Assembly (NCBI GenBank): GCA_937922785.1
Contig: CALAJQ010000025.1
Location: forward strand, 124,001-188,000
DNA length: 64,000 bases
Reading direction: 5' to 3'
Source of the DNA: an uncultured Acidimicrobiales bacterium
GTDB lineage: Bacteria > Actinomycetota > Acidimicrobiia > Acidimicrobiales > SZUA-35
The notes under the pieces are model-generated. The model had not been told where the DNA came from and made no database searches. It was given only the letters and a program-made list of their open reading frames with translations. Below, one piece after another: positions 6,149-61,494 of the stretch. The position numbers and the translations under genes are program-made. Each line of letters starts with the position of its first letter. Positions within the stretch are counted from its first letter, which is position 1.

Positions 6149-6286
6149 CAGATTCCCTTTTTGTTCGGATCCCACTAGAAGAGATCTCCCTCAACCCGAA
6201 CCTAGCCTGCTCGTAGCTCTGTGTTGAGGAATGTGGAAAAGATGACCCAGACCAGCGCAAATGCGCAATTGGCCATGCCACCAAAC

Positions 6287-6313
6287 GGGGACAGGCCTGG
6301 CTCACCTTCAACT
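6287..6313 (+). repeat. Dispersed intergenic repeat, copy A
   Basis: The unit begins GGGGACAGGCCTGGCTCACC and continues TTCAACT. The identical 27-mer recurs at 11456-11482, 26 of its bases recur at 13523-13548, and shorter copies lie near 14907 and 15238. Its core CAGGCCTG is self-complementary. It is located between the K+ channel and the secreted hydrolase, outside coding sequence. Confidence 0.85.
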
Positions 6314-6321
6314 CACAAAAA

Positions 6322-7314
6322 CTAGGAGTCTCGCAATACCACGATTGAGTCGGTTGATTGGATGTGTTCTGGCGCGGTAAGGGCTGGCCCGAGGCGCTGG
6401 CCGTCCCGGATTATGGCCACCAAAGTTGCACCGGCCGGGACAGGCTCGCCGGTGGCTTCCGGAGAGATTGCCACCAACTCAATACCCGTGCCCACATCAA
6501 GCAAGTCGTCCAACACCTGCACCGCTCCCGGGGCGTGAATGCCCATGCCCAACATTCGCCCGACGGTCGCGGTGGCGTCGATTACTTCGTTGGCGCCTCC
6601 CTGGCGAAGTAGATGCAGGTTTTCCTGATCACGCCCGGCCGCCACAACGTGAGCTGACTTGTTCAGCTCCCGCACACTGAGGGTTGCAAGAATGGCGGTG
6701 TCATCACGGTTAGGGGCAACGATCACTGACCGGGCGGTCTCAACCGAAGCCTGCTCCAAAACATCATTACGAGTTGCGTCGCCCCGCACAGCCACAAAAC
6801 CAAGACGGCTAGCTGCAGCCATCGCCTCATCGGCCATGTCGACTACGACGATGTCATCTGCGGCAACACCTCTACCCATTAAGTCCGCAGCGGCAGCTTG
6901 TCCGGTTGCCCCGAAGCCACAGATGACGGTGTGGTTTTTCACGTTTTGCCTCCAGCGGCGTTCGGCGAGCAGTTCTCGAGATTGCTCTGTCAGTACTTCA
7001 ACGGTCGTAGAGACCACGAGAATAAGAAAGAGTATGCGGGCGGGAGTTATCAGCAGGATCGTGCCCAGGCGGGCGCCGGTGCTAACCGCTGAGATGTCGC
7101 CGTAACCAGTTGTAGTGACCGTGACCGACGCGTAATAGAGAGCGTCGATGATGCCGATCTGGTTGCCCGTGACGTCCACGTAGCCATCACGTGAGAGCAG
7201 AACAACAACCGCAACAAACAAAACAAGGCTGCCAGCCAGCCCAATACGACGAGCAACAGCACTGAGCGGAGCGCGACGACGCGCTGGTAGCTGAACTAGC
7301 TCGGTGGAACCCAT
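6322..7314 (-). CDS. Potassium channel with RCK (TrkA-N/TrkA-C) domains
   Basis: A 330-residue two-transmembrane channel. A first helix (LAGSLVLFVAVVVLLS) is followed by the pore loop ASVTVTTTGYGDISA containing the K+ selectivity filter TTTGYGD, then a second helix, then a cytosolic RCK domain with the Rossmann motif VICGFGATGQAAA and a C-terminal TrkA_C-like segment. Family knowledge: RCK domains gate the pore on binding nucleotides or Ca2+. ATG at 7314 is chosen over GTG at 7323 because AGGG at 7323-7326 sits a suitable distance upstream of 7314. It stands alone, between the secreted hydrolase and a Mo oxidoreductase. Confidence 0.88.
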   Translation of the reverse strand: MGSTELVQLPARRRAPLSAVARRIGLAGSLVLFVAVVVLLSRDGYVDVTGNQIGIIDALYYASVTVTTTGYGDISAVSTGARLGTILLITPARILFLILVVSTTVEVLTEQSRELLAERRWRQNVKNHTVICGFGATGQAAAADLMGRGVAADDIVVVDMADEAMAAASRLGFVAVRGDATRNDVLEQASVETARSVIVAPNRDDTAILATLSVRELNKSAHVVAAGRDQENLHLLRQGGANEVIDATATVGRMLGMGIHAPGAVQVLDDLLDVGTGIELVAISPEATGEPVPAGATLVAIIRDGQRLGPALTAPEHIQSTDSIVVLRDS

Positions 7315-7384
7315 CGGCTGCACCCTAGTTTCCGAATAGTCCCAAGCATGGGTGGTCGAGCCAGAATCGAGAGTATTCGCTTGA

Positions 7385-8050
7385 TCAGGTGTGCTTTCTG
7401 GCAGTGCGGTCTGCTGCGTACGCGGTGGCCGGGATGATCAATCGATACGGAAGCCGAACCAGCCAGTTCGGATACTTGGGGTGACGCTCTTCTTGGGCGA
7501 CTCGACCGCGCAAGTGCATCTTGCCAAGTTTGCGGGGCTCCCTGTTTCGAAAGTCCAGGCCGGTCAGATGTTTGACGTTCTTGTATCCGTAGTGCGCAGG
7601 GGCGACCAGACGAAGCGGTCCGCCATGACGTGGCGGTAGCGGCTCGCCGTTTAGTCGAGTTGCCAAAATGACGTCGGGCGCCAAGGCATCCTCAACTATG
7701 AAATGAGCGTGTGCGCCATCGGCCGCCTTGGCTTTGACGAACGCACCGGCGCTGCTATCAAGCCCGATCGAACGAATCACCTCGGCCAAGGGCACACCTT
7801 CCCAAGTGAGGTCCTTAACCGACCAAGTAGTGACGCAGTGAAAGTCGGTCACTTGGGTCCGCACACCAATTGCCGTGAGGTCTGCCTCGGTGAGCTTCGA
7901 CACCACTTCACCGTTCACGCTTATGGCCAGTTCGGGAGGGCCCATTGGTGGCGGCGGCTTGAACGGATCGTCACTGAACCGGGGCATCTTGGTTAACAAT
8001 CGCTGACCAGGGGGCAAACCTTCGCTGCGGCGCGGCCAATAGAAAGTCAT
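7385..8050 (-). CDS. Molybdopterin-dependent oxidoreductase (sulfite oxidase family)
   Basis: A 221-residue protein carrying only the Mo-cofactor domain (PF00174 type). Cys72 in TDFHCVTTWS is the conserved thiolate ligand of Mo, followed by W..VPLAEVI and PLRLVAPAHYGYKNVKHLTGLDF. It lacks a signal peptide, heme domain and dimerisation domain, so it resembles the short cytoplasmic YedY/MsrP-like actinobacterial proteins; substrate unknown. GGAG just upstream of ATG 8050 is a good ribosome site. Its start overlaps the stop of the TetR gene by four bases (ATGA), so it is the second gene of a TetR-led operon. Confidence 0.85.
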   Translation of the reverse strand: MTFYWPRRSEGLPPGQRLLTKMPRFSDDPFKPPPPMGPPELAISVNGEVVSKLTEADLTAIGVRTQVTDFHCVTTWSVKDLTWEGVPLAEVIRSIGLDSSAGAFVKAKAADGAHAHFIVEDALAPDVILATRLNGEPLPPRHGGPLRLVAPAHYGYKNVKHLTGLDFRNREPRKLGKMHLRGRVAQEERHPKYPNWLVRLPYRLIIPATAYAADRTARKHT

Positions 8051-8649
8051 GTGTTCTCCTTTGTTAACGCGGCTAAGACACCGGTTACGGCATCGGCCAC
8101 TAACTGTTCAGAATCTTTGCTTGGGGCCTCGCCCCGACTAAGTGGCAGGCGGACTGCCGCGTATGGGATATCCATTATTGCGAACCCAAGCCGACGCTTC
8201 TGGGCTGCGGTTTTGGCTCCCACTCGCTTGCAGAGTTTGTTCTGCATGACCTGAAGCCGTTGAAGCTGGGCTTGGTTGCGTTCGATCACTTCGTCAGGCC
8301 AGCCGTCGTGAAGAAGGGCCGACGCGCTGTGTAGCAACAGAACTTGGGCGTGAAGTGGGAACTCCCGAGCCCACGTCACGACGCCGCAAGATATGCGGAC
8401 AACGTCGGAATAGGTCTCGGTGGTATCAAAGATGGGCTCGATGTGTTGGTGGAAATGTTCAACAGCGCGAAGCCACATCATGGCAATCAGCAGGTCACGA
8501 GAGTTGAAGCGGTGATAGATAGAGCCGCTGGGGGCGCCCAGGTTTCTGGCAACAGCCGACACGGTGAGGGCGGCCGGCCCGTCATCGAGCAGCAGGCCAC
8601 AAGCCACGTCGAGAATCTCGTCTGTTGAGAATTTGGAAGGCCGTGCCAT
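8047..8649 (-). CDS. TetR family transcriptional regulator
   Basis: A 200-residue regulator. The N-terminal helix-turn-helix reads TVSAVARNLGAPSGSIYHRF, typical of TetR, followed by a variable ligand-binding domain. It is co-transcribed with the Mo oxidoreductase (ATGA overlap). A perfect inverted repeat lies immediately upstream of its start codon and is the obvious autoregulatory site. The ligand is unknown. Confidence 0.88.
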   Translation of the reverse strand: MARPSKFSTDEILDVACGLLLDDGPAALTVSAVARNLGAPSGSIYHRFNSRDLLIAMMWLRAVEHFHQHIEPIFDTTETYSDVVRISCGVVTWAREFPLHAQVLLLHSASALLHDGWPDEVIERNQAQLQRLQVMQNKLCKRVGAKTAAQKRRLGFAIMDIPYAAVRLPLSRGEAPSKDSEQLVADAVTGVLAALTKENT

Positions 8650-8651
8650 AG

Positions 8652-8673
8652 TTTTAGAGACTACTCTCTAAAA
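8652..8673. promoter_or_regulatory. TetR operator (9-bp perfect inverted repeat)
   Basis: TTTTAGAGA (8652-8660) and TCTCTAAAA (8665-8673) are exact inverted repeats around CTAC. The site ends two bases before the TetR start codon, which fits repression of the TetR-Mo oxidoreductase operon, and it may also affect the divergent hydrolase fragment. Confidence 0.7.
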
Positions 8674-8723
8674 CCAATTTGCGACGTATCGGGACCCCTA
8701 GGACTGCTAAGGGTTGTGTTGGG

Positions 8724-9338
8724 GTGAGGTCGGGGGAAGCCAACAACAAACTCGTTGTGATTTCTCACGGGATCGCCGGCGCCCGAACCTCTAACGATTA
8801 CATCACGACCCGCCTCCCAGCTGAAGGGTTCACTGTTGCGGCTCCAACCCATCCAGACCTCGCCGGACTGCAAAGCAAAGACCCCAGCCTTGACCCTCTA
8901 GTACTGCGTCCTCGTCACCTGTCTTTGACCATTGATCACATGACAGACACTGCCACCGAACCGTTCGAAGAGGTGATCGTGGTTGGGCATTCGTTTGGGG
9001 GCTACAGCGCGCTTCGACTTGCCGGAGCGAACCCAACAAGTGATGGTGTAGCCCAGCACTGCGATTCAAACCCAGGCGATGAAGTTCTGTGCACACCGGC
9101 CGCCCGCAGCCGATTCGATCGCCTAGTGGGAGACGACGCCAACTTCACCGACTCACGAGTCGATGCGGCGTTGATACATGGCGGCTATTGGCCGTTGACT
9201 ATCAGGCGTCTGCCGTCAATGGGCTCACGTAGTTGGTGGGTGCGGCGGCAAAGGGAGGCGGCAGGACTTCCTTCACCTTCGATGAAGCCCACACCACAAT
9301 CGCCGATGCCGCACATCTTCTTGGCCGAGTTGGTCTGA
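8724..9338 (+). pseudogene. Truncated alpha/beta hydrolase (dienelactone hydrolase/PAF-acetylhydrolase-like)
   Basis: NKLVVISHGIAGARTSNDYI, the nucleophile elbow VVGHSFGGYSALRLAG and PLVLRPRHLSLTID clearly belong to an alpha/beta hydrolase family whose members are about twice this length. The reading frame stays hydrolase-like only to about base 9175; beyond it the residues lose any family resemblance and the acid and base of the triad are missing. The usual N-terminal strands before VVISHG are also absent. GTG 8724 or TTG 8679 could serve as start. I read it as a decayed gene whose 3' end is overlapped by an opposite-strand gene; a short active variant is less likely. Confidence 0.55.
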
Positions 9339-9496
9339 CGTTCGAGGGTGATCGCAATGCTGGATGGGTAGTAGGCAGCCCGCATGCGTTCAGCGTTGCA
9401 AGTCCAAGACCCAGTGAAGCCAATCTCAGATTCGCTGACGATCACTACTGATCCCGGATCTACTTGGACCCAATAGGCTGAGTCCGGCCCGGTCAT
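9185..9496 (-). CDS. Hypothetical protein
   Basis: A 103-residue reading frame not recognised. Its ATG at 9496 overlaps the stop of the upstream small membrane protein by four bases (ATGA), and its codons have the GC-rich third positions usual here, whereas the opposite strand over the same bases looks non-coding. It contains several cysteines (SWTCN, MCGIGDCG, SLCRR). No signal peptide or membrane helix is seen. Probably the second gene of a two-gene unit with the 9493-9711 gene. Confidence 0.4.
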   Translation of the reverse strand: MTGPDSAYWVQVDPGSVVIVSESEIGFTGSWTCNAERMRAAYYPSSIAITLERQTNSAKKMCGIGDCGVGFIEGEGSPAASLCRRTHQLREPIDGRRLIVNGQ

Positions 9497-9711
9497 GTGG
9501 CTGGCTGGAAGAACGGTGAAAACACCACAAACGCTAGGACAGCGGCAACCACCAAGAATCCGATGAGGTAGCGCTGCCGATTTGACGTCCGGACGGGCCG
9601 GGTGTGGTGTCCTGCGTCAAACGGGATTCGATGCTTCTGACTTTCTTCTCCGCGCCACCGCGCGTGCTGTTGAGCACCTAAGGGTCCGTTTCCGCCAAAG
9701 CCGTTAGCCAT
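9493..9711 (-). CDS. Small membrane protein
   Basis: 72 residues: a hydrophilic, His/Arg-rich N-terminal half (QQHARWRGEES..PFDAGHHTRPVR) and one C-terminal transmembrane helix, YLIGFLVVAAVLAFVVF, ending FFQPAT. The arrangement resembles a tail-anchored or single-span protein. Function unknown. It is coupled through an ATGA overlap to the hypothetical gene downstream. Confidence 0.5.
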   Translation of the reverse strand: MANGFGGNGPLGAQQHARWRGEESQKHRIPFDAGHHTRPVRTSNRQRYLIGFLVVAAVLAFVVFSPFFQPAT

Positions 9712-9761
9712 GATTAGCTAACGACCACAGAGGGCCACAGGTTCCCGATGGCCATTTCGGA

Positions 9762-10340
9762 CTAGCTGTCCCCGAAGATGTGGGTGGGTTTGCCGTCGTT
9801 GCTGGTCGAGTTCTTTCGCTCCCAGAATCCGTGCAGTTTCTCGTCGGACATCTTCTTGTAGAACGGCTCTAGCTCAGTCGCTCCCCTATCGGCATCAACG
9901 ACGCTCATCGTGGGGACTCCCGTTCCACACGAGTCGGCTATCCGATCGATCCGCATGTCCAGAATCTGACGAGATCCGCCATAGTCGGGGAACATCGGAG
10001 ATAGTTCTTCCCATTCAGCATCACGAGGGTGAATGACCGTGGCCTGCCCATAGATCCGAAGGATGATCGGAGTTGCCCCGAACGACATCCACATAAGCGT
10101 CATGCGTGACGACTCGGCTAGGTGGGCTGCGGTCTCGTTTCCGCTGCCGGTGAGGTTTAGCCAGACGATGCGGTCGTCGCCGATGATGCGCAAAGTATCC
10201 ATGCCTTTGGGCGACATGTTGACGGTGCCTTCGGGCGCAGCGGTCGCCACCAGGAACATCGGCTGAGCTTCGATGAACTCTTTGCGATGATCGCTAAGCG
10301 TTTCGGCCGGGGGCTTACGTTTCCACTTCGTGGTGTCCAT
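9762..10340 (-). CDS. Pyridoxamine 5'-phosphate oxidase family protein
   Basis: A 192-residue split-barrel flavoprotein: FLVATAAPEGTVNMSPKGMDTLRIIGDDRIVWLNLTGSGNET is the FMN-binding pattern of the PNPOx-like family found across actinobacteria. True vitamin B6 synthesis is unlikely because the C-terminal PNPOx dimer region is absent. The start at 10340 is preferred to ATG 10364, because the latter lies inside a perfect inverted repeat that must be the operator shared with the divergent ArsR gene. Confidence 0.8.
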   Translation of the reverse strand: MDTTKWKRKPPAETLSDHRKEFIEAQPMFLVATAAPEGTVNMSPKGMDTLRIIGDDRIVWLNLTGSGNETAAHLAESSRMTLMWMSFGATPIILRIYGQATVIHPRDAEWEELSPMFPDYGGSRQILDMRIDRIADSCGTGVPTMSVVDADRGATELEPFYKKMSDEKLHGFWERKNSTSNDGKPTHIFGDS

Positions 10341-10360
10341 ATGAAAGACACTACGCCTAT

Positions 10361-10384
10361 ACATTTCGGCCTGCGCCGAAATGT
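10361..10384. promoter_or_regulatory. ArsR operator in divergent promoter (10-bp perfect inverted repeat)
   Basis: ACATTTCGGC (10361-10370) and GCCGAAATGT (10375-10384) are exact inverted repeats around CTGC. The site lies between the divergent PPOX-family gene and the ArsR gene, 20 bases from one start and 21 from the other, ideally placed to control both. Confidence 0.75.
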
Positions 10385-10405
10385 CGGGCGCCTATTGTCG
10401 TCAGT

Positions 10406-10900
10406 ATGCAAAGCAGCCGCATCACAACTTTCGCAAGCGCACTAGCCGATCCAACCCGCGCCTCTGCGATGGCTGCCCTGCTCTCGGGAACAGCACACAC
10501 CAGCGGCGAACTGGCCCGAACATGTGGCGTTGCGCCTTCGACTATGAGCGGCCACCTAAACAAACTGATCGACGCCGGTTTGGTGATGGTTGAGCCGTCG
10601 GGCCGTCACCGCCACTACCGCATTGCATCACGAGAAGTTGCTGATCTGCTGGAACGGATGGACTCGATCGAACTGCCCGAGACAGACCCTCCCAATCGGC
10701 CGAGACCCGGGCAAGGGCTTAGTTATGCCCGAAGTTGTTACGACCATCTAGCTGGGCAACTTGGAGTTGAGATGCACAACGTGTTTCTTGACCGTGAGTG
10801 GGTGGTGGTTGATGGCCAGGTTCCTGAACTAACCGCAGCTGGTGAACAGCTGCTAACCGGCCGCAAGAATTTAAAGATGGTGTTCGGTATCGGCGGCTGA
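10406..10900 (+). CDS. ArsR family transcriptional regulator
   Basis: 164 residues with a winged helix (ALADPTRASAMAALL, HTSGELARTCGVAPSTMSGHLNKLIDAGLV, then a wing SGRHRHYRIASREVADLLE). It lacks the CxC metal site of arsenic/cadmium sensors, so it belongs to the non-metal ArsR group whose C-terminal part contains YARSCYDHLAGQLGV. That group usually has a longer C-terminus ending with a cysteine-containing LDW.ER.HLAGALG segment, which is missing here, so the protein may be a shortened form. It faces the PPOX gene across a perfect palindrome. Confidence 0.85.
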   Translation: MQSSRITTFASALADPTRASAMAALLSGTAHTSGELARTCGVAPSTMSGHLNKLIDAGLVMVEPSGRHRHYRIASREVADLLERMDSIELPETDPPNRPRPGQGLSYARSCYDHLAGQLGVEMHNVFLDREWVVVDGQVPELTAAGEQLLTGRKNLKMVFGIGG

Positions 10901-10912
10901 CACACTTGACCC

Positions 10913-11443
10913 ATGACGTGGTTCTCAATAGACATTGAAGCGAACGGTCCTGCGCCAGGACTCTATTCAATGACATCGTTTGGGGCGGTAGCAGTTCGGG
11001 GGGAACTGACCGACACGTTTTACGCCGAGCTGCAGCCCTTGCCCGGAGCCTCGGTAGATGAAGAAGCTCTTGCAGTAGCAGACCTGTCGATGGAACACCT
11101 CGAAGCCAACGGGCAGGACCCAGTTGAAGCAATGACCAAGTTTGCGGGGTGGCTGCACGAAACATCAATCAACCAGCCGGTCCTCGTCTCAGACAACCCC
11201 GGTTTCGACGCCTCGTTCATCAGCTACTACTTCGCGTACGCCGAAATCAAGAACCCGTTCGGTCACTCATCGCGACGGATAGGCGACCTGTACTCGGGCT
11301 TCCAACGAGACTCACGCCAATCGTCAGAGTGGAAGAAACTGCGAATTGCCACCCACACCCACAACGCACTTGACGACGCAATCGGCAACGCCGAAGCCAT
11401 CCTCAAGATCGGCGAGATGGGCCTAAAACTCCCACAAGGCTAA
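10913..11443 (+). CDS. DEDDh-type 3'-5' exonuclease (RNase T/DnaQ-like)
   Basis: A 176-residue exonuclease. Exo I is FSIDIEANGPAPG (Asp7, Glu9), exo II is SDNPGFDASF, and exo III is HNALDDAIGNAEA with the histidine and aspartate of the DEDDh class. Family members trim DNA or RNA 3' ends with two Mg2+ ions. There is no polymerase or helicase domain and no obvious partner gene, so the physiological substrate stays open. It starts 12 bases after the ArsR gene and may be co-transcribed. Confidence 0.82.
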   Translation: MTWFSIDIEANGPAPGLYSMTSFGAVAVRGELTDTFYAELQPLPGASVDEEALAVADLSMEHLEANGQDPVEAMTKFAGWLHETSINQPVLVSDNPGFDASFISYYFAYAEIKNPFGHSSRRIGDLYSGFQRDSRQSSEWKKLRIATHTHNALDDAIGNAEAILKIGEMGLKLPQG

Positions 11444-11455
11444 CCAAGCCGCCTC

Positions 11456-11482
11456 GGGGACAGGCCTGGCTCACCTTCAACT
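11456..11482 (+). repeat. Dispersed intergenic repeat, copy B
   Basis: Identical over 27 bases to copy A at 6287-6313 and in the same orientation. It lies 12 bases after the exonuclease stop, between converging transcripts. Confidence 0.85.
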
Positions 11483-11560
11483 AAGTTCTGGGGTTTGGGA
11501 GCAGCCAAGGCTCGCCTAGCCGACCGCTAAACGGCTGGCGCCTAACACCCATCCCAAGGG

Positions 11561-12895
11561 CTAGCCGGCTGAGATTCCGACGACTCGGAAGTCGGTTATT
11601 GCCGCAATGTCTTCGAGTTCTGGGTTCACGATGAACTCGATGGTTGTCCCTGACTGCAGGTTCGAGAAATCGAGGTTTTCACCTAGTGGCCCCGGAGTCG
11701 TTATGCCACCCTCGACGATTGTTGCGTCGGGCGAAAGGCCAAAGGCCACACCTTCGATGATCAGCCTGTACACACCGTCTTCGCCGGGTTCGACGACTTC
11801 ATCGATGATCCCGAATCCGCTACCGCTTTGGGTTTCGGCTATGTCGGCAAGCGTTCGGGTTTCGGGGCGGAGTAAGTCGTCGCTGATCCAGCCGGTCAGG
11901 CCTACGGAACCCATCGGGATTTCGATTTCGGTGTAGCCCTCCCCGTCTACCGTCGCGGTGCGACCGGTTGAACGAACGTTGTTGAGGTCGTCACCGATGT
12001 TGCCAGTCACTACCCCATCAGGACCGGGCAGGGTTGTAAGTGGCCACTGTTCGAGATCGATGCCGGCACCAACCGTTGCAATCCGACGAGGGTCGCCGTC
12101 GACAACGTTGAGCGCTTGATCTCGACCCAAGATTTCGGCGTGTTCGGTTTCGAGCTGACCTACTAGATCATCGAAGTTGTCTAACCCGGCACACTCAAGT
12201 TCGACGCCAAAAGTCTCAGTAGAAGTCTCGACTGAGTTGTCAGTGAAGAACCAGGTCTGGGTTGAACGGCGGCCGCTTGGCACAACAACCGACGCAACCT
12301 CGGCCGAACCGCCAGCACCGAGCGTGCCCGTTGTGATGACGCTGGACACTTCCTCGAAATCTGGAAGCTCTTCAAGGCTGACGAAGTCCTCCCCCTTGAA
12401 CTGGATGATCCAGAAATCTTGTGATGCTTCGGGGGCTCGGAACTCTGGACCGAAACATCGGTAAGTAGCCTCAACGTCGGCCGGTGGCGGGTTTGTGTCA
12501 GCAGGCGCCGTTGTTGGTGTGGTTGTTGTGCCTTCGTCGCCAATCTCGACTGTCTCAGGATCTTGCAGAGCAACGAAGGCGCCCACGCCGACGATCGCTG
12601 CGATGACCGCCGCTGCGGCTAGCAGAATTGGGGAACGGGTAGGTGTTGGAGCGGCTGGTGTAGTCATGTCCATGAGACGGACAACTCCATCGTCTGTATC
12701 CGAACTTTCTGAGATTGTCTCTAGACCGGCAGCGGATCCGGGTTTGTTTGCACGTTCGTCAGCAACGTCTGCGAGTCGGGCATCGATACTGTCCCAATAA
12801 GAGGCGCCTGGTTGGGGCACCTCATCTTTCAGCATGCGGCGGAGTTCGTCGTCGTTCCTGTTGTTGTCGTCGGCGCTGTTGTTTTCGTTGCTCAT
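11561..12895 (-). CDS. Putative anti-sigma factor, single-span membrane protein
   Basis: 444 residues. An acidic cytoplasmic N-terminus (DDELRRMLKDEVPQPGASYWDSIDARL) precedes one membrane helix, PILLAAAAVIAAIVGVGAFVA, a Thr/Pro linker (TTTTPTTAPADTNPPPADVE) and a large extracytoplasmic domain of unknown fold. Its ATG overlaps the stop of the ECF sigma factor by four bases, and GGAGGA lies just upstream. That coupling and topology are typical of anti-sigma factors. It lacks the zinc HxxxCxxC motif, so it would be a non-ZAS type; the sensing domain resembles nothing I know. Confidence 0.7.
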   Translation of the reverse strand: MSNENNSADDNNRNDDELRRMLKDEVPQPGASYWDSIDARLADVADERANKPGSAAGLETISESSDTDDGVVRLMDMTTPAAPTPTRSPILLAAAAVIAAIVGVGAFVALQDPETVEIGDEGTTTTPTTAPADTNPPPADVEATYRCFGPEFRAPEASQDFWIIQFKGEDFVSLEELPDFEEVSSVITTGTLGAGGSAEVASVVVPSGRRSTQTWFFTDNSVETSTETFGVELECAGLDNFDDLVGQLETEHAEILGRDQALNVVDGDPRRIATVGAGIDLEQWPLTTLPGPDGVVTGNIGDDLNNVRSTGRTATVDGEGYTEIEIPMGSVGLTGWISDDLLRPETRTLADIAETQSGSGFGIIDEVVEPGEDGVYRLIIEGVAFGLSPDATIVEGGITTPGPLGENLDFSNLQSGTTIEFIVNPELEDIAAITDFRVVGISAG

Positions 12896-13428
12896 GATTC
12901 CTCCTCCCAACGCAACAAGCGGGCACGGACGCGCCCAACACGCGAGGCTACGGTTCCCCGTTTCTCTCCAAGAATCTCGGCTGTTTCATCGAAGCTATAT
13001 CCGAGGCCTGCGGTCAACATCAACATGGCGCGTTGCTCGGGGCTGCAATCGTCCAGCACGCTCGCAAGTTCAGCTTTGCTTAAGGCAGCGGTCTCGGGCT
13101 GGACCTCGGGTGCAGCGCTTGCCACAGCCCTTAGTTCAGTTACATCGGCGTGGCTGCGTCGGTTCTCATACCGGATGTAGTCGACCGCGGTTCGATAGAT
13201 GATGGAGTGCAGCCACGTCTTCATCGAAGACCGACCATCGAACCGGTCAATCGAGCGAAAGGCACGCTCGTATCCGTCCTGCATTACGTCATCGGTCGCC
13301 GAAGCTGAACGGACCACACTCCAAGCGACACCACGCAAATCGTGGTCCCACAGTCGTAAGAGCTGCCCAAACGCGCTTGCATCGCCGCTACGGGCACGGC
13401 GTTCAAGCGAAGAGATTTCGGCGGTCAT
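12892..13428 (-). CDS. ECF RNA polymerase sigma factor
   Basis: 178 residues with region 2 (LRGVAWSVVRSASATDDVMQDGYERAFRSIDRFD..SSMKTWLHSI) and region 4 (LDDCSPEQRAMLMLTAGLGYSFDETAEILGEKRGTVASRVGRVRARL), joined by a short linker, as in sigma-70 ECF factors. ATG 13428 is preferred to GTG 13440 because GGTGA lies upstream of it. The gene overlaps the downstream membrane protein, the likely cognate anti-sigma factor. Confidence 0.88.
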   Translation of the reverse strand: MTAEISSLERRARSGDASAFGQLLRLWDHDLRGVAWSVVRSASATDDVMQDGYERAFRSIDRFDGRSSMKTWLHSIIYRTAVDYIRYENRRSHADVTELRAVASAAPEVQPETAALSKAELASVLDDCSPEQRAMLMLTAGLGYSFDETAEILGEKRGTVASRVGRVRARLLRWEEES

Positions 13429-13522
13429 AACAAAGGTCACCAGTCATTAGACGTCCAGCTATGTCCGGCGTATCCAAGAAATCTAACAAATCACGGCCGC
13501 TTGCGACGTCTACCCCTCGGTT

Positions 13523-13549
13523 GGGGACAGGCCTGGCTCACCTTCAACC
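13523..13549 (+). repeat. Dispersed intergenic repeat, copy C
   Basis: Matches copies A and B over 26 bases (13523-13548) and then differs. It sits 13 bases upstream of the hydrolase start at 13562, so here the unit lies in a 5' region and not in a 3' region. Confidence 0.85.
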
Positions 13550-13561
13550 TATTGTGTAGTG

Positions 13562-14272
13562 ATGTCGACGTTTGTTTTGGTTCATGGCGCTTGGGGTGGG
13601 TCCTACGGTTTTCGTCATTTGAGGCCGCTGCTTCAAGCCGAAGGTCACCAGGTGTTTACGCCAAGTCTGACCGGCATCGGCGAACGAGTTCACTTGGCCT
13701 CAAAGATGGACATAACACTCAGCACTCATATCGAAGACGTGGCCAACATGATCTTCCACGAAGACCTCGACGACATCACTCTGCTTGGGTTCTCCTATGG
13801 CGGAATGGTTGTGACCGGGCTTCTTGATGACCTCGCATCCAAAGTCCGCCACCTGGTCTATCTCGACGCAATTGTTCCGACCGATGGCCAAAGTGGTCTG
13901 GATGTTCTTGGTGCTCAAGGTCAAGCTTTGGAATCGATGGCCGAGGGCGGATTTGTTCCCCCGATCCCCCGCCAGCTTGACACACCCGAAGCGACGGCCT
14001 GGTCCGACGCTCGCCGGGCACCCCAGCCGCTTGGCACAATCACCGAACCCGTTCGGCTGGCTCGACCACTGGAGGAAGGTGGCTTCAGTCGCACGTTCAT
14101 CAAGGCCAGCGCCGACCCCGGCGAGGCAAACGATTCGGCATTCTGGCAAGCCGCCCACATGGCCAAAGCGTCACCGAAGTGGGGCTACCACGAGATCGAA
14201 ACCAACCACATGGTCCCGATGACTCGACCCGAAGAACTCGCAGCGATCTTGCTAGGAATCGCCAGCAGCTAA
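13562..14272 (+). CDS. Alpha/beta hydrolase (salicylate-esterase/methylesterase-like)
   Basis: A 236-residue alpha/beta hydrolase. FVLVHGAWGGSYGFRHLRPLL carries the oxyanion HGAW motif, GFSYGGMV is the nucleophile elbow, VYLDAIVP follows, and the histidine is in YHEIETNHMVPMTRPEELA. The pattern matches the plant-like methylesterase/hydroxynitrile lyase group common in actinobacteria. Substrate not predictable. ATG 13562 is used; a GTG sits immediately before it at 13559. Confidence 0.82.
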   Translation: MSTFVLVHGAWGGSYGFRHLRPLLQAEGHQVFTPSLTGIGERVHLASKMDITLSTHIEDVANMIFHEDLDDITLLGFSYGGMVVTGLLDDLASKVRHLVYLDAIVPTDGQSGLDVLGAQGQALESMAEGGFVPPIPRQLDTPEATAWSDARRAPQPLGTITEPVRLARPLEEGGFSRTFIKASADPGEANDSAFWQAAHMAKASPKWGYHEIETNHMVPMTRPEELAAILLGIASS

Positions 14273-14398
14273 GCGGTCCGAGCGAGCTGCAGTGGTGTGT
14301 CCCAGCGACCCAGGCGCTCACAGGCGATAGCCCCAATTCGCTTGGCTACGCGAACCTGCAATATCGTCACCTCAACGCACTGACCCCAAGGAGCCACT

Positions 14399-14872
14399 TT
14401 GTCCCAAAAATCTGCCACTCAAGGATCTGCCACAGTTCGAGTGGAAGCGTCACCCGAGGCCGTGTATGCGTACCTGACAAACCTCGAGTTGCTGCCCGGC
14501 CTTAGCCCAGAGAACGTGCGTTGTGAGTTTCTAGACGACGCCACCGAGCTAGCAGTTGGCGTGAGGTTCCGAGGCCACAACGAGGCGAGGGCGATCGACT
14601 ACAAGTGGCATGCCGATTGTGAAGTCACGGTGCTGGAGGCTAACCGAGAGTTCGCATACGAGGTTCCACCCGGCTTCGAACACGCAACGACGTGGTCATA
14701 CACAATCGAGCCCGACGGGACCGGGTCGATTGTGACCGAGCGTTTTGATGCACCCATGCTGGCGATGCCTGACGTTTACCCCGGCAAGATCGAGGGTCGC
14801 CGCGACAACTTAGAGAAGGCGTGTGAGATCACGATGGCCAGGCTCAAAGAAGCACTGGAAGCCAGCGCTTAA
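14399..14872 (+). CDS. SRPBCC (polyketide cyclase/START-like) family protein
   Basis: 157 residues with the helix-grip fold signature: ATVRVEASPEAVYAYLTNLELLPGLSP at the N-terminus and a C-terminal long helix RRDNLEKACEITMARLKEALEA. The start is TTG at 14399, seven bases after AAGGAG at 14387-14392. Such proteins bind hydrophobic ligands; many in actinobacteria have no known role. It is monocistronic as far as can be seen. Confidence 0.78.
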   Translation: MSQKSATQGSATVRVEASPEAVYAYLTNLELLPGLSPENVRCEFLDDATELAVGVRFRGHNEARAIDYKWHADCEVTVLEANREFAYEVPPGFEHATTWSYTIEPDGTGSIVTERFDAPMLAMPDVYPGKIEGRRDNLEKACEITMARLKEALEASA

Positions 14873-14906
14873 CCGGGCACGTCGGCTAGGTGCGCTGGCG
14901 CGCAAG

Positions 14907-14924
14907 GGGGACAGGCCTGGCTCA
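14907..14924 (+). repeat. Dispersed intergenic repeat, copy D (short)
   Basis: Eighteen bases, GGGGACAGGCCTGGCTCA, identical to the first part of copies A-C, then diverging. It contains the stop codon of the small opposite-strand reading frame at 14922 and faces copy E, 313 bases away, in inverted orientation. Confidence 0.8.
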
Positions 14925-15233
14925 TCTGATGTTTGTAGGCACCGCTATCAAGGCAACGGCAACCGCGCCCCAGACGAACGGATTCGCTCCGTTGTTCGAG
15001 GCAGGTTTGAGCAACCGTTTGGAAGTAGGGCCCAACATGGCGGTGTTTGCCGCCTCGTCGTGGAAGCGCCGCTTGCCCTTGCTAATCATGAGTACAGAAC
15101 GACACAGGAGCGCCTCCGGTCCCAGCTGTTCGGGTTGGCGTCGAGCGATCTGGCGCTCCGTACGGACGAAAGTCTCGCTGGGCGGGATTTCAGCCGTATC
15201 TTTTTGCTTTTGTGGGGGTTGCAGTTGAGCCAA
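14922..15233 (-). CDS. Putative small membrane protein inside an inverted-repeat-bounded segment
   Basis: A 103-residue frame starting at TTG 15233 (or 55 residues from ATG 15089). The C-terminal part has one hydrophobic helix, NPFVWGAVAVALIAVPTNIR. Codons look like those of nearby genes. Both ends of the 14873-15267 gap carry copies of the dispersed repeat in opposite orientation, and the frame terminates within one of them. No homologue recognised; coding status uncertain. Confidence 0.35.
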   Translation of the reverse strand: MAQLQPPQKQKDTAEIPPSETFVRTERQIARRQPEQLGPEALLCRSVLMISKGKRRFHDEAANTAMLGPTSKRLLKPASNNGANPFVWGAVAVALIAVPTNIR

Positions 15234-15237
15234 ATAG

Positions 15238-15258
15238 AGGTGAGCCAGGCCTGTCCCC
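15238..15258 (-). repeat. Dispersed intergenic repeat, copy E (inverted)
   Basis: The reverse complement of the first 21 bases of copy A, located nine bases after the dnaE2 stop codon. With copy D it forms an inverted pair bounding about 350 bases. Confidence 0.8.
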
Positions 15259-15267
15259 GTTAATGCG

Positions 15268-18200
15268 CTAGCGGAAGTCTCGGCTCATTGAGCCTGTGCC
15301 TAGCGGGAGGGGTTCTAGCTTTTCCGCTACCAGGTTTACTACTGCGCCTTGGCGTTCTACACGGCCCTTTACTAACAACGCTGGGGCGGTGGTCGCCACC
15401 CGCAGGAAGCGTTGGTAACAGCCCACGCTTATCACCACGTTGATGAGTCCCGTCTCATCTTCCATGCTCATGAACGTCACACCCATCGCCGTCGCAGGAC
15501 GCTGACGATGAGTCACCACTCCCCCAACGGTCGCCTTTGTCCCGTCCTCGGCCTTGGCCAAACCAGCAGCCGACAACACGCCACGTTCATCCAACTGCGA
15601 CCGCAAGAACTTTGTTGGGTGACCATCGGCCGCTACCCCGGTCGCCCACAAATCAGCCAGCGCCACTTCCCTATCGCTCATGCCCGGCAACTGCGGCGCC
15701 TCGACTCCGGTGATGATCCCACTTAACTTCTGAGACGACGCTTCGGCCAACGCACCCGCGCTCCACAACATGGCCCGCCTATCGTCGTTGATTGACCCGG
15801 TAGCAAAACAGTCGAATGCACCGGCAGTCGCCATTGCTTCCAACACGTCTTTCTTGGCTCCGATGTGGCGGGCCACTTCTTCTACCGATTCATAAGGCGC
15901 GCCGGCTTCGATCAACTCGGCCAAGTCGTCGCCGACACCTCGTATCGAGTTCAAGCCAAGGCGCACACCCCAGCCGTGGTCACGCCTCTGGTCAGCCGTC
16001 TCGTATTCGACATTCGGCAACTGAGCATCAGAAACCTGTTCCAACACAGCACCGGCCGACGATGCGTTTACACACGGAGGCAACGTCGGCACGCCATGAC
16101 GCCTTGCGTCTTGGGCCAACGAATGGGGCGAGTAGAAACCCATTGGCTGGGCGTTCAACAACGAAGCCAAGAACGCCGCCGGGTAATAAAGCTTGATCCA
16201 AGACGACGAATACACCAGGTAGGCAAAGCTGATCGAGTGGCTTTCGGGGAAACCGAAGTTGGCAAAGGCCGCCAGCTTCATCCAGATCTGGTCGGCCTCC
16301 AAACCGGTGATGCCTCGCTCGGCCATGCCCTCATAGAACCGAGCGCCAAGCGCGGCCATTCGTTCGGCGCTTCGCTTGGAACCCATGGCTTGTCGCAGCT
16401 CGTCGGCCTCGCCTGCTGAGAACCCGCCAACGTCGATCGCTATTTGCATCAACTGTTCTTGGAACAGCGGGATGCCCAACGTCTTCTCCAACGCCGGCTT
16501 CAACAACGGGTGCAGGTAGGTCACGGGTTCTTCGCCGTTGCGACGCCTTATATATGGGTGCACCGATCCGCCTTGGATGGGGCCGGGCCGAATCAAGGCG
16601 ACCTCAACTACCAAGTCATAGAAGGTGCGGGGTTTGAGGCGAGGCAGCGTGGCCATCTGCGCCCGGCTTTCTACCTGGAACACGCCGACCGAATCGGCCC
16701 GGCACAACATGTCATAGACGGCTTCTTCTTGTTCGAGAAGTGAAAGGTCTATTTCGACGTCGTGATATTCGGCCACCATGTCGACGGCGTAGTGGAGGGC
16801 GCTGAGCATGCCGAGGCCCAATAGATCGAACTTGACTAGGCCCGCGGCGGCGCAATCTTCTTTGTCCCACTGAAGGACCGTGCGGTTTTCCATGCGGGCT
16901 TGTTCGACCGGGCACACTTCGATGACGGGCCGATCGCACATGACCATGCCGCCCGAGTGGATGCCGAGGTGGCGTGGCAGGTGTCTGAATTCGGCTGCCA
17001 ACTCCAACACATCAACCGGGGAGTCTTGGGGAACTTTGGCGAATGCGTCTTGTTGACCGGGCGCGTATCCCAAGGCTTTGGCGGCGTCTCTTAGGGCCGA
17101 CTTCTTTCGGTAGGTGATGACGTTGGCAACCTGAGCGGCGTGGCGTCGACCGTGTCTTTCATAGACATATTGGATGGCTTCTTCCCGACGGTCCGATTCG
17201 ATGTCTAGGTCGATGTCGGGCGGGCCGTCACGGTCTGGTGAGAGGAATCGTTCGAACAACAGGCCGAGGCTGACGGCGTCGGCTTTGGTTACGCCAAGCA
17301 CATAACAGACGGCACTGTTGGCGGCGGAGCCTCGGCCTTGGCAGTAGATGTCGGAGCGGCGGCAGAACTCGACGATGTCCCACACCACGAGGAAGTAGCC
17401 GGGGAAGCCGAGGGTTTCGATGAGGTCGAGCTCGTGGTCCAGTTGTTTCCAGGCGCCGGGCATTCGTTCCCGGTGGCGGGGTCCGTAACGTTTGGCTCCG
17501 CCTTCTTCTACCAGCCGCCGTAGGTACTGCATTTCGGTGAGTCCGTCGGGGCATGGGTAGGGCGGGAGGTTGGGGGCCATTAGTGACAGGTCGAACGCGC
17601 AGTTGCGTCCAAATTCTGCTGCTCGTTCGACGACTCCCGGGAAGCGGGCGAAGCGGCGGGCTTGTTCGTCGCCGGATCGGATGTGGGCGACGGCGCCGGC
17701 GGGTAGCCAGCCTTGGAGTTCGTCTAACGACTTGCGGCTGCGGACTGCGGCGAGGGCGGTTGCGAGGCGGCGGTCTTTGGTGGCGGCGTAGTGCACGTTG
17801 TTGGTGGCGATGGGTTCGACGCCGGCCCGCATGGCGATTTGGGCGAGGGCGTCGTTGCGGACGCTGTCTAATGGTGCGCCGTGGTCCCACAGTTCGACGG
17901 CGACGTTGTGTTTGCCGAAGCGGTCGATGAGTTTGTGCAGCTCTTGTTGGGCGGCGGCTGGTCCGTTGGTTTCGAGTGCTTTGGGGACGGCACCTTTGCG
18001 GCATCCGGTGAGGACAAGGAGGTGGTCTACTTCGCCCGGGTTGAGCCAGCGGTCAAAGTCGTTGTAGGTGAGGCGGGGTGCGCCTTTGTCGCCCGCGAGT
18101 TGTGCTTCGGATATGACTCTTGCAAGCGCCGCGTAACCGGTGGTGTCTCGAGCGAGAACAAGGAGGTGTTCGCCGTGCGGGTCGGGTTGTGGGATTGGTG

Positions 18201-18621
18201 CGGTGTTGGGTTTGGGTGGTCGGGCTGCGCCGATGGTTAGTTCGGAGCCGAAGACTGTGGGTAGGCCGTGCTTTCGGGCCGCTTCAGCGAAACGGACGAC
18301 GCCGTAGAAGCCGTCATGGTCGGTGATGGCGAGCGCTTCGAGGCCTTGGCGGACGCCCTCTTCAACCAGGGCCTCGGGCGAGGATGCGCCGTCGAGGAAG
18401 CTGAAGTTCGAGTGACAGTGAAGCTCGGCATAAGGGGTGGTTGAGTTATGCCTTATTAATGGGGGCGCTTCGTAAGTGCTGCGCTTGTTAGCCCAAGCCG
18501 GAGCGTCAGAGCCGTCGGCCCCTTCAGGTCTGCCCCTTGCTGGGGGTCGATCTTTGGGTCGACGATCAGAAAGTGTCGACTCCAGCTCTCTCCAAGTAAT
18601 CGGCCCGTTGTCCCAACCCAT
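15268..18621 (-). CDS. dnaE2: Error-prone DNA polymerase III alpha subunit DnaE2 (ImuC)
   Basis: 1117 residues. The N-terminus MGWDNGPITWRELESTLS is characteristic of DnaE2, followed by a PHP domain (YAELHCHSNFSFLDGAS, ITDHDGFYG), the C-family polymerase core with DGPPDIDLDIES and RPGPIQGGSVHPYI, helix-hairpin-helix and a C-terminal OB domain (ATVGGVVTHRQRPATAMGVTF). Family knowledge: DnaE2 performs SOS-induced mutagenic translesion synthesis with ImuA/ImuB. Those partners are not adjacent here. ATG 18621 lies 31 bases downstream of a LexA box. High GC3 in the PHP region produces long shadow frames that are not genes. Confidence 0.95.
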   Translation of the reverse strand: MGWDNGPITWRELESTLSDRRPKDRPPARGRPEGADGSDAPAWANKRSTYEAPPLIRHNSTTPYAELHCHSNFSFLDGASSPEALVEEGVRQGLEALAITDHDGFYGVVRFAEAARKHGLPTVFGSELTIGAARPPKPNTAPIPQPDPHGEHLLVLARDTTGYAALARVISEAQLAGDKGAPRLTYNDFDRWLNPGEVDHLLVLTGCRKGAVPKALETNGPAAAQQELHKLIDRFGKHNVAVELWDHGAPLDSVRNDALAQIAMRAGVEPIATNNVHYAATKDRRLATALAAVRSRKSLDELQGWLPAGAVAHIRSGDEQARRFARFPGVVERAAEFGRNCAFDLSLMAPNLPPYPCPDGLTEMQYLRRLVEEGGAKRYGPRHRERMPGAWKQLDHELDLIETLGFPGYFLVVWDIVEFCRRSDIYCQGRGSAANSAVCYVLGVTKADAVSLGLLFERFLSPDRDGPPDIDLDIESDRREEAIQYVYERHGRRHAAQVANVITYRKKSALRDAAKALGYAPGQQDAFAKVPQDSPVDVLELAAEFRHLPRHLGIHSGGMVMCDRPVIEVCPVEQARMENRTVLQWDKEDCAAAGLVKFDLLGLGMLSALHYAVDMVAEYHDVEIDLSLLEQEEAVYDMLCRADSVGVFQVESRAQMATLPRLKPRTFYDLVVEVALIRPGPIQGGSVHPYIRRRNGEEPVTYLHPLLKPALEKTLGIPLFQEQLMQIAIDVGGFSAGEADELRQAMGSKRSAERMAALGARFYEGMAERGITGLEADQIWMKLAAFANFGFPESHSISFAYLVYSSSWIKLYYPAAFLASLLNAQPMGFYSPHSLAQDARRHGVPTLPPCVNASSAGAVLEQVSDAQLPNVEYETADQRRDHGWGVRLGLNSIRGVGDDLAELIEAGAPYESVEEVARHIGAKKDVLEAMATAGAFDCFATGSINDDRRAMLWSAGALAEASSQKLSGIITGVEAPQLPGMSDREVALADLWATGVAADGHPTKFLRSQLDERGVLSAAGLAKAEDGTKATVGGVVTHRQRPATAMGVTFMSMEDETGLINVVISVGCYQRFLRVATTAPALLVKGRVERQGAVVNLVAEKLEPLPLGTGSMSRDFR

Positions 18622-54911: not shown

Positions 54912-54963
54912 GCTTCTGTCATAGGTTTATCGGTCTATAGACCGATAAACCTATGACAGAAGC
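54912..54963. promoter_or_regulatory. 52-base perfect palindrome upstream of the enoyl-CoA hydratase operon
   Basis: Both 26-base arms are exact inverted repeats with no spacer: from GCTTCTGTCATAGGTT at 54912 to the centre CGGTCTATAGACCG at 54931-54944 and out to AACCTATGACAGAAGC at 54963. It lies 43 bases before the hydratase start and 24 bases after the sucrose phosphorylase stop on the same strand. No T-tract follows, so it is a poor terminator and fits a regulator site (GTCTATAGAC centre, GntR- or TetR-like) or a cruciform. Confidence 0.8.
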
Positions 54964-58750: not shown

Positions 58751-58821
58751 TTGACCAAAGCCTAGGAAGAGACCTGCCCTCCGCCCAAATCGGCCATCAT
58801 CGGCCGCAGCTAGCCGGGAAC

Positions 58822-61494
58822 CTAACTACTTCTGAGACTTGACCCCCTTTGAAGCCACGTTTGGGCTTCAACCAGAATCTCTTCAATGGTCGTGTCGTCA
58901 AGTGGGTTGTAGTCAACCAATCCGACGACTGAACGATGGACGCGGTAGACCCCGATCGAGATGCCGGTGCCCAGTACGCCTTCGCCTTGGCGGATTGCAG
59001 TTAACCAGCGCCGGCAAAGCTCTTTCTCGCCAAGCGCATTCGCAAGGGTTAGGTACGGCAAGAGGATGTCAGGCAACCCGTCCATTCTTGACTCTTCCAA
59101 CAACACCGTGATGCGGTCGATGCAGGCAATCGTGCCCTCGATGTCACCTGTGGCGGCAACCCCGCTGGAGCGATGGAGCTCCATGAACCAATCATGGTCC
59201 AGGCCGTGATCAGTCGTGATCTCAACCAACTCTTCAACCGCCGCCCGAGACCTTGACGGGTCATCCAAGAGATCAACCTGCATTGTGGCTTCGAGTGCCA
59301 TCACCCTGACCTGGTCAGCGCGGCCTGCATTCGGCCGTGAAGCCAACTCTTCAAGAACAAGCCGCGTCTCAGGGAACCTGTGGGCCAAGGCAAGGTAGTT
59401 AGCCCGGTAACCCAAAGTGGCTGCCGCCAGAGTCTCATCTCCGATATCGAGCGCCACGTGATAGGCCTCATCCAGCAATTCATAGGCCGTCTCGGGGTCA
59501 TTGACTATCCGATCAAACGTGGCCCCAATCAGTGCGCTTACAAGTTCCGGCGACGGTCCAAGCGGCCGCAGTAGGCCTATCGCAGTTTCAGCACCGGTTC
59601 GATACCAACGAATACTTCGCGCCGCACGAGCCGCGCGGCCAGCCACAACGTGAAGCGTGGCCGACTGAGTGTCGGTCAGGCCGGTTTCGGCTATGTATCG
59701 TTCCAGGCGCTCAATCAGTTGGGATGCTCGCTGGGGAAGTTCACGGCTGTAGGGCCACCGCAGGTACCAAAGCAACTCGGCTAGCTCGTCAAACCGAGCC
59801 GCGGCCGCCAGCCGATCTTCAACCGCCCGGTGATCGTCATAATGCAGCATTGACCAGCCAGCCAACGCAATGGACAAACCAGCATTATCAGCGCCTTCAG
59901 TTCGAGCGTGATTGAGAATCCACTCGGTGTGCTGGTCTTCGAAATCTGGTGACGTAGGATCATCGGCCCATCGATCACGAACAAACAGCTTCACTGTCTC
60001 CAGCAGTTTGAGACCGCCATGACCGTCGTTGGCCACAAGCCCGCGGTCGACGATGCCTCCCAGCGAATGAACCACAGACATTTCCTTGCTGGCCTCTTCG
60101 AGGTCGGCAAGGGTGAACGAAGATGGGAACGCTGCTGCCAGTTTCAGTAGTGATTGCTCGGCCTCATCAAGCATCGCCCACGAATCAGATAAGACGTCAA
60201 TCAGGCTGGAATGGCGGCCGCGACGGCGGCGGCCGCCTCTCGACAACAACTGGAACCTCTGGTCAAGACGGTCCTCAAGCTGGGTGAGGGTTAGCTGTCT
60301 AAGTTGGGCTGCCGCTAGCTCGATTGACAACGGAAGCCCGTCGAGATGCCGACAAATGTTGGCCACCTGCTCGGTGTGATCGGCACCTAAATCGGCTCCG
60401 ACTCGATTGGCAGCCTCAACGAAGAGCCTGATCGCAGGTGAGCCAGAAGAGGAAGCCACCGCCAAGGGCTGGACGCGTATTTGATGCTCGTCTTGAAGCT
60501 CTAAAGGTTCACGACTCGTGACGATAATGTGAACGTTGCTTGAGCGTTCCAGCAGGTGATCGATAACGTCGGCCACGTCATCAGTGAGGTGTTCACAGTT
60601 GTCAAAGACCAGCAGCATTTGGCGTTGCGCAACCTGTTCGGCCAGGGCTTCAACCAGGTAACTACCGGTGAGTCGCAATCCAGACGCGCTCGCAGCAGCT
60701 TCGGCGACGCTGTTGGCATCAGTCGCCGGCACAAGATCAACGAACCAGGTTCCACCCTCAAATCGATCTGCAACTTCAGCCGCGACTGCAAGCGCCAACC
60801 GAGTCTTTCCAGTGCCGCCAATGCCCAACAAGGACACCAGCCGATGTTCAAGCACCGTCTTTGCTATCTCAATGACTTCATCGGTTCGCCCGACCAGGGG
60901 CGTGCGCTCGACAGGCAGATTGTGACGGGCGGCGGCCAAGGTGCGCAACGCAGGAAACGTGTCGGTTCCGAGTTGCCAGATTCGCTCTGCCTCGGCCAGA
61001 TCCTTTAGACGATGTTCGCCCAAGTCGGTCAGCACAACATCGCGGGCTAGCGGAGCGGCAGCGGCCGACAGCAGGGTCTGGCCGCCGTGAGCTGCGGACA
61101 CGATCCGTGCCGTGCGGTTGAGGACTTGTCCGAAGTAGTCGTTGTCTCGTTCCTCGGCGACTCCAACATGGATTCCAATCCGCACCGCAATTGGAGTGAG
61201 ATCTGACCATTCCTCCTGCTGTATTGCCAGCTGAGCGGCGCTCGCTGCAGCAAGGGCATTCGGGACGTGGTGGAACGCAGCGACGAACTGGTCGCCAGCG
61301 AGGGAGAACACGTAACCGTCGTTCGACTCAATGGAGGCTCGCAGAATCGCGTCGTGGCGTCGTAGAGCAGCCCGCATATGTTCAGGATGAGCTTCCCAAA
61401 GCCGAGTCGAACCCTCAATGTCAGAGAAAAAGAATGTGACCGTACCCGTGGGAATGCCAGGAACCGCGTCCGCTGTAAGGTCCCCCATTCCCAT
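58822..61494 (-). CDS. Class III nucleotidyl cyclase domain - NB-ARC-like ATPase - TPR regulator
   Basis: 890 residues. Residues 15-180 are a class III cyclase domain: TVTFFFSDIEGSTRLWEAHP, FSLAGDQFVAAFHH, GIHVGVAEERDNDYFGQVLNRTARI. Next, TPLVGRTDEVIEI leads to a STAND/NB-ARC ATPase with Walker A LLGIGGTGKTRLALAV, Walker B MLLVFDNCEHL and IIVTSREPL. The C-terminal 400 residues are alpha-helical repeats. Such cyclase-ATPase proteins are abundant in actinobacteria as signalling or transcription-related proteins; this one lacks a LuxR helix-turn-helix at the end. A start at GTG 61545 directly after the DUF1992 stop is possible, but ATG 61494 gives the usual distance to the cyclase motif. Confidence 0.85.
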   Translation of the reverse strand: MGMGDLTADAVPGIPTGTVTFFFSDIEGSTRLWEAHPEHMRAALRRHDAILRASIESNDGYVFSLAGDQFVAAFHHVPNALAAASAAQLAIQQEEWSDLTPIAVRIGIHVGVAEERDNDYFGQVLNRTARIVSAAHGGQTLLSAAAAPLARDVVLTDLGEHRLKDLAEAERIWQLGTDTFPALRTLAAARHNLPVERTPLVGRTDEVIEIAKTVLEHRLVSLLGIGGTGKTRLALAVAAEVADRFEGGTWFVDLVPATDANSVAEAAASASGLRLTGSYLVEALAEQVAQRQMLLVFDNCEHLTDDVADVIDHLLERSSNVHIIVTSREPLELQDEHQIRVQPLAVASSSGSPAIRLFVEAANRVGADLGADHTEQVANICRHLDGLPLSIELAAAQLRQLTLTQLEDRLDQRFQLLSRGGRRRRGRHSSLIDVLSDSWAMLDEAEQSLLKLAAAFPSSFTLADLEEASKEMSVVHSLGGIVDRGLVANDGHGGLKLLETVKLFVRDRWADDPTSPDFEDQHTEWILNHARTEGADNAGLSIALAGWSMLHYDDHRAVEDRLAAAARFDELAELLWYLRWPYSRELPQRASQLIERLERYIAETGLTDTQSATLHVVAGRAARAARSIRWYRTGAETAIGLLRPLGPSPELVSALIGATFDRIVNDPETAYELLDEAYHVALDIGDETLAAATLGYRANYLALAHRFPETRLVLEELASRPNAGRADQVRVMALEATMQVDLLDDPSRSRAAVEELVEITTDHGLDHDWFMELHRSSGVAATGDIEGTIACIDRITVLLEESRMDGLPDILLPYLTLANALGEKELCRRWLTAIRQGEGVLGTGISIGVYRVHRSVVGLVDYNPLDDTTIEEILVEAQTWLQRGSSLRSS

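Follow-up and report, generated by a model that had tools for sequence, protein, structure and literature searches.

What is the short repeat that stands at five gene borders within 9 kb of the stretch analysed here (the window; 64 kb, C25:124001–188000), and what could have dispersed it? The window is part of an uncultured Acidimicrobiales genome of 4,913,539 bases in 45 contigs. The answer favored here, with a probability of roughly 0.84, is that the repeat, named TIR1, represents the terminal inverted repeat (TIR) of a TIRYT element, and that the tyrosine transposase of this element, TIRYT1, would act on single-stranded DNA, where it would recognise the GGGGACAGGC.. end and mobilise such ends in trans.

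The unit GGGGACAGGCCTGGCTCACC occurs five times between positions 6287 and 15258 of the window, compared to 0.01 expected in shuffled sequence. Four copies are exact and one, at 14907, has one mismatch. The copies and the segment enclosed by the last two are as follows.

6287..6313, plus strand: TIR1 short form, exact GGGGACAGGCCTGGCTCACC
11456..11482, plus strand: TIR1 short form, exact, with a stop codon on the same strand 13 bp before it
13523..13548, plus strand: TIR1 short form, exact GGGGACAGGCCTGGCTCACC, with a deviating final base of the unit
14907..14926, plus strand: TIR1 copy with one mismatch, diverging past GGCTCA
15223..15258, minus strand: TIR1 long form, exact GGGGACAGGCCTGGCTCACC at 15239–15258
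14907..15258, no strand: segment of 352 bp bounded by an inward-facing TIR1 pair

The same five copies had been listed in a first-pass annotation of the window, with the inverted copy placed at 15238 rather than 15239. The annotation had also put them always at gene borders, and all five indeed fall outside called genes, the long form following the stop codon of a 1117-aa gene (15268–18621) at a distance of about 10 bp. Two copies described as identical over 27 bases share 28 nt (6286–6313 and 11455–11482), and from 15.3 kb to 64 kb, where no copy had been noticed, a search for GGGGACAGGCCTGGCTCACC also returned zero copies.

Motif counts across the genome were compared with a control in which the same pattern was reversed. 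A search with GGACAGGCCTGGCTCA allowing one mismatch gave 15 matches, all of them exact, and a search with GGGGACAGGCCT gave 15; the reversed control gave 0 in both cases, as would be expected of the dispersed repeat that the annotation had proposed to count genome-wide. The second pattern gains an inverted partner at C20:100928 and loses a copy starting with AGGG at C20:194764, and the union of both searches is 16 TIR1 copies. Their core is nearly invariant. The start is GGGG in 15 copies and AGGG in one, while the inner end varies: GGGGACAGGCCTGGCTCACCTTCAAC(T) in seven of the 16, a long form with about nine extra bases ahead of GGCTCAACT in four, the variant CTCCAACT in one, and divergence after GGCTCA in three and after GGCCT in one. 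The five window copies represent a cluster (5/16 within 9 kb) that was matched in 0 of 200,000 random placements. No exact GGGGACAGGCCTGGCTCA was found in viral contigs.

The genome contains two Y1 genes (IS200-like, HUH; PF01797 over cut-off), both on contig C12. The annotation was thus right that the window encodes no such transposase, and the search of the remaining genome that it had suggested identified one that is flanked by the repeat itself.

L017:991–1869, contig C12, minus strand: TIRYT1, 292 aa, HUH nuclease with catalytic Tyr119
L016:1468–2460, contig C12: TIRYT2, flanked by its own 44-bp inverted repeat

On either side of TIRYT1 is a TIR1 copy that faces the gene, and the starts of the two copies are 949 bp apart. 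The two arms of the 44-bp repeat flanking TIRYT2 are 86% identical (GGGTCAAGTCTC..TGTGGATAA) and differ from TIR1. Both proteins retain the HxH motif, the tyrosine and the Y---NP signature, and residues H60, H62, Y119, N123 and P124 are invariant across 24 aligned proteins of the family. A profile of these 24 proteins matches DnaA structures (E = 2.4e-7), seven of the 24 also hit Bac_DnaA_C at E ≤ 1, the best E-value being 9.2e-5, and the C-terminal stretch of TIRYT1 is related to DnaA domain IV.

The pairing of transposase and repeat extends to other genomes. Among 118 other genomes, 37 of which are labelled as the same family, the transposase family is present in 16 at E ≤ 1e-20. Flanking inverted repeats at E ≤ 1e-4 were identified at 19 of 28 transposase loci (the two described above included), compared to 2 of 140 mismatched upstream/downstream pairs. 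Many of these repeats start with GGG(G)[AT]C, yet they vary from gene to gene. The nearest kin of TIR1 come from two genomes of another genus (G010 and G028), in which GGGACAGGC flanks a transposase gene; GGGACAGGCHCC occurs 20 times in G028 (control 4) and nine times in G010 (control 3), with five inverted pairs spaced by 28–56 bp. The TIR1 core with one mismatch gave 16 matches over 15 of the 118 genomes, against 6 in the reversed control. A further 21 loci with TIRYT1 relatives in named genomes (best segments 23–41% identical) were scanned for motif letters only.

Placement relative to genes was assessed with a codon-usage gene caller made for this study and trained on 24 long open reading frames (ORFs) of the window, 91% of which was called coding. 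Genome-wide, 15 of 16 TIR1 copies are outside called genes, in keeping with the intergenic preference noted in the annotation; for comparison, intergenic sequence accounts for only 8% of the 12-mers in the window. With a slightly stricter version of the caller, nine of the 16 copies have a same-strand stop codon no more than 13 bp upstream of the GGGG. When copies were placed at random in the same gaps in either orientation, the mean was 2.6 and nine was never reached in 2000 trials. Of the remaining copies, one is entered by the frame of the gene before it and two lie 20 and 34 bp behind a stop. This gene-end bias may reflect selection together with target preference.

A sister family, TIR2, behaves similarly and is more abundant, with 44 matches genome-wide to GGTCAAGTCTCNNAAGT at up to one mismatch (control 4). 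Among 54 TIR2 copies, some of which were picked by a pattern that requires a DnaA box, 17 have a same-strand stop no more than 13 bp upstream (null mean 8.0, with 0 of 2000 trials as high). In 14 further copies, a gene reads into the repeat and stops inside it, leaving tails such as GSSLKSS. TAG stands immediately before nine of the 54 (p = 5e-10 relative to window positions), and, as judged by eye, before four of the 14 copies whose upstream gene is on the opposite strand. Among the genes reading into TIR2, one that we take to be GlcF-like is informative. Homologues are present in 30 of 41 genomes (this one included), and most of the alignments listed end at the TIR2 border or within a few residues of it. 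All 22 readable relatives, from 23 loci, extend six or more residues past that border; TIR2 has therefore replaced the native end of the gene, from which it follows that TIR2 moves. The lost residues were sought in three frames behind TIR2 and were not seen there.

TIR1 and TIRYT1 are a published but little-studied kind of element. Di Nocera and colleagues (2013; PMC3733652) described TIRtrons, in which a Y1 gene lies between TIRs, many of them sharing GGGGWSAS; some TIR families are scattered over the genome singly, as dimers or in groups, and TIRs differ between genes of one genome. The present system agrees in that TIRYT1 is a Y1 protein with HUH and catalytic tyrosine residues, has inverted repeats of a non-REP type on both sides, and has an end, GGGGACAG, that conforms to GGGGWSAS. 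The start of TIR2, GGGGTCAA, conforms at seven of the eight positions, the last one being off. What is added here to the published description is a set of 16 TIR1 copies in which a preference for positions just downstream of stop codons has been quantified. Most TIRYTs fall into subclass 2.1 of PMC6006769, which is equated there with RAYT group 1 of Bertels 2017 (291/292 sequences) and has a C-terminal Bac_DnaA_C or helix-turn-helix (HTH) region and no REPs. The present family shares the HUH and Y---NP motifs, a C-terminal region of this type, and the lack of REP hairpins. IS608 and ISDra2 (IS200/IS605) are of the same nuclease family; unlike TIRYT elements, they lack terminal inverted repeats, and their hairpins are subterminal. 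Their insertion is specific to a short flank (in part, PMC8266576).

The annotation had likened the repeat to REP/REPIN families mobilised by an IS200-like transposase, that is, hairpin units with a GTAG-type tag that are bound by a RAYT. Part of this proposal stands, since a tyrosine transposase that could act in trans does lie between TIR1 copies on C12. The trans mobilisation logic, the inverted copies around the gene and the intergenic spread are all shared with RAYT systems (PMC2817692, PMC8266576), and an inverted TIR1 pair at C20:100874–100939 can fold into a hairpin of 66 nt (−30.7 kcal/mol, z −9.25), much like a REPIN. It is the only TIR1 pair that forms a single hairpin; the other 14 copies comprise two facing pairs (352 bp apart in the window, and across TIRYT1) and single units. 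The self-complementary core reported by the annotation holds insofar as the TIR1 centre, CAGGCCTG, is a DNA palindrome, but a stable hairpin does not follow from it: as single-stranded DNA, one unit folds at −0.7 kcal/mol, a value equalled or bettered by 195 of 200 shuffles. The aligned units have no GTAG (or CGTC) tag, and 16 copies are few for REPs, which usually exceed 100 copies per genome (PMC2817692). The DnaA-like C-terminal region is also a feature of subclass 2.1, for which the available text of PMC6006769 reports no REPs. Membership of TIR1 in the REPs was dropped on the grounds of hairpin, tag and copy number, and a RAYT-driven REP family is considered unlikely.

A near-invariant core with a palindromic centre, found mostly at gene 3′ ends, could also be expected of a site for a host regulator or nucleoid protein that is kept by selection, with the copies beside the transposase gene serving as an operator. 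An operator does not account readily for inward-facing copies on both sides of the gene, nor for the second transposase and those of relatives that carry different inverted repeats at the same place. A host site would also not be expected to have 0 exact copies in the other genomes, same-family ones included, and a conserved gene has had its end replaced by TIR2. This explanation is judged quite improbable. Less probable still is a transcription terminator or mRNA 3′-end element. While copies just behind stop codons and in gene orientation would suit such a role, the aligned units have no T run and there are only 16 copies in the whole genome; the absence of a single-unit hairpin led to this role being dropped.

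Several observations weigh against a TIRYT element with mobile TIR1 ends. TIRYT1 by itself gives a weak DnaA-like match (E = 0.19), no match to PDB sequences, and 39.8 bits with the NCBIfam REP-transposase model, which is under the 80-bit cut-off. At E ≤ 1e-4, flanking repeats are absent from nine of the 28 transposase loci, and a threshold of E ≤ 0.05 does not give a clean control (20/28 loci compared to 22/140 mismatched pairs). Three more genomes of the G010/G028 genus show no excess of GGGACAGGCHCC (0, 1 and 2 matches against 0, 6 and 1 in the control). The exact TIR1 core is found in none of the 118 genomes and movement of TIR1 was not seen. With respect to placement, one copy (L020, C10:107885) falls within an ORF called on the opposite strand, and three of 16 have an opposite-strand gene upstream. 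AAC directly precedes only five of the 16 copies, and its p-value of 7e-6 comes from a comparison with every position of the window, so that the background is not matched to gene ends. As a separate observation, the ORF call at C10:107885 may be overlong.

From the known chemistry of Y1 enzymes (PMC8266576), we infer that TIR1 moves by the following route. TIRYT1 would bind the GGGGACAGGC.. end on single-stranded DNA, and its tyrosine would cut the end through a 5′-phosphotyrosine link, with rejoining behind a short flank. Single ends and pairs of ends would be moved or copied in trans by TIRYT1, and insertions would persist mainly where no gene is broken. The short flanks, AAC before TIR1 and TAG before TIR2, may guide the choice of site, which would itself favor stop codons.

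Paired ends were also inspected for what they enclose. The window pair at 14907–15258 was searched for a transposase-like frame or transposase remnant and none was found inside. About 98 bp at the right side of this segment recur at C8 with 85% identity. Beside the 15258 copy, positions 15160–15204 recur at C8, C26, C22 and C23 with 82–93% identity and are possibly a further dispersed repeat. Inward TIR2 pairs approximately 900 bp apart (L135, C7:56335–57237; L111, C15:2982–3905) enclose ordinary-looking genes, the ORFs of which presumably resemble GNAT and SURF1 proteins. A transposase remnant was sought inside both and none was found.

The inner part of TIR2 provides the surprising element of this study, a DnaA box. 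When 43 TIR2 copies were chosen without use of the box, 33 were found to have a perfect TGTGGATAA and 37 had it with up to one mismatch; the published consensus is TT[AT]TNCACA (PMC6006769). In the set of 54 copies, 43 have a box, starting 35 or 36 nt past the first G. The genome holds 61 perfect boxes (control 13), of which 47 are in TIR2 copies: 45 within 50 bases of TIR2 matches, and two in worn copies judged by eye (L214 and L220). Near the host dnaA gene there is one perfect box and one TGTGGACAA. For the combination GGGGWCA..TGTGGATAA, this genome has 39 occurrences (control 0) and the 118 others have three, compared to two in the reversed control. None of the 16 TIR1 units has a DnaA box at up to two mismatches. 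The accessible parts of the TIR and TIRYT descriptions do not mention an inner DnaA box, and those of PMC6006769 describe GGGG[AT][CG]A[CG] ends that are unlike DnaA boxes, in contrast to the perfect box in most TIR2 copies. No report of DnaA boxes in TIRYT ends was identified by title in a literature that was mostly open access.

A tentative design may be proposed in which the TIR2 end is bipartite, with an outer GGGGTCAAGTCTC and a DnaA box 35–36 nt inward that is read by host DnaA, by the DnaA-like C-terminal region of the transposase, or by both. Transposition could then be coupled to replication, and the dispersed ends could act as a DnaA reservoir. TIR1 might follow the same design, with its inner block (TCAACT or GGCTCAACT) suited to the DnaA-like region of TIRYT1, which has diverged. 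As to which of the two candidate readers is in play, host DnaA has the residues RDHTTV at a place where the aligned TIRYT2 does not, and this speaks for host DnaA as the reader or for a contact that has changed.

Three other features of the window were observed.

58820..58846, minus strand: worn TIR2 copy without a DnaA box, into which the upstream gene reads and stops
54912–54963: perfect palindrome of 52 bp
29592–29970, 34394–34772 and 35266–35647: three diverged copies (60–74%) of one stretch

A perfect palindrome 92% identical to that at 54912–54963 is present on C8 near a TIR2 copy (L002, 761–808), and L106 has near-identical surroundings but a much shorter palindrome. The three diverged copies are probably paralogous genes, and related sequence is found in L008.

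Taken beyond the window, these results connect an anonymous repeat between genes with one particular transposase. With two transposase/repeat pairs in one genome, cognate recognition can be tested in a natural setting. The boxes within TIR2 offer a testable answer to why these transposases have a DnaA-like region, a question left open in the available text of PMC6006769. Finally, TIR2 suggests that a mobile repeat can alter the supply of DnaA boxes in a genome.

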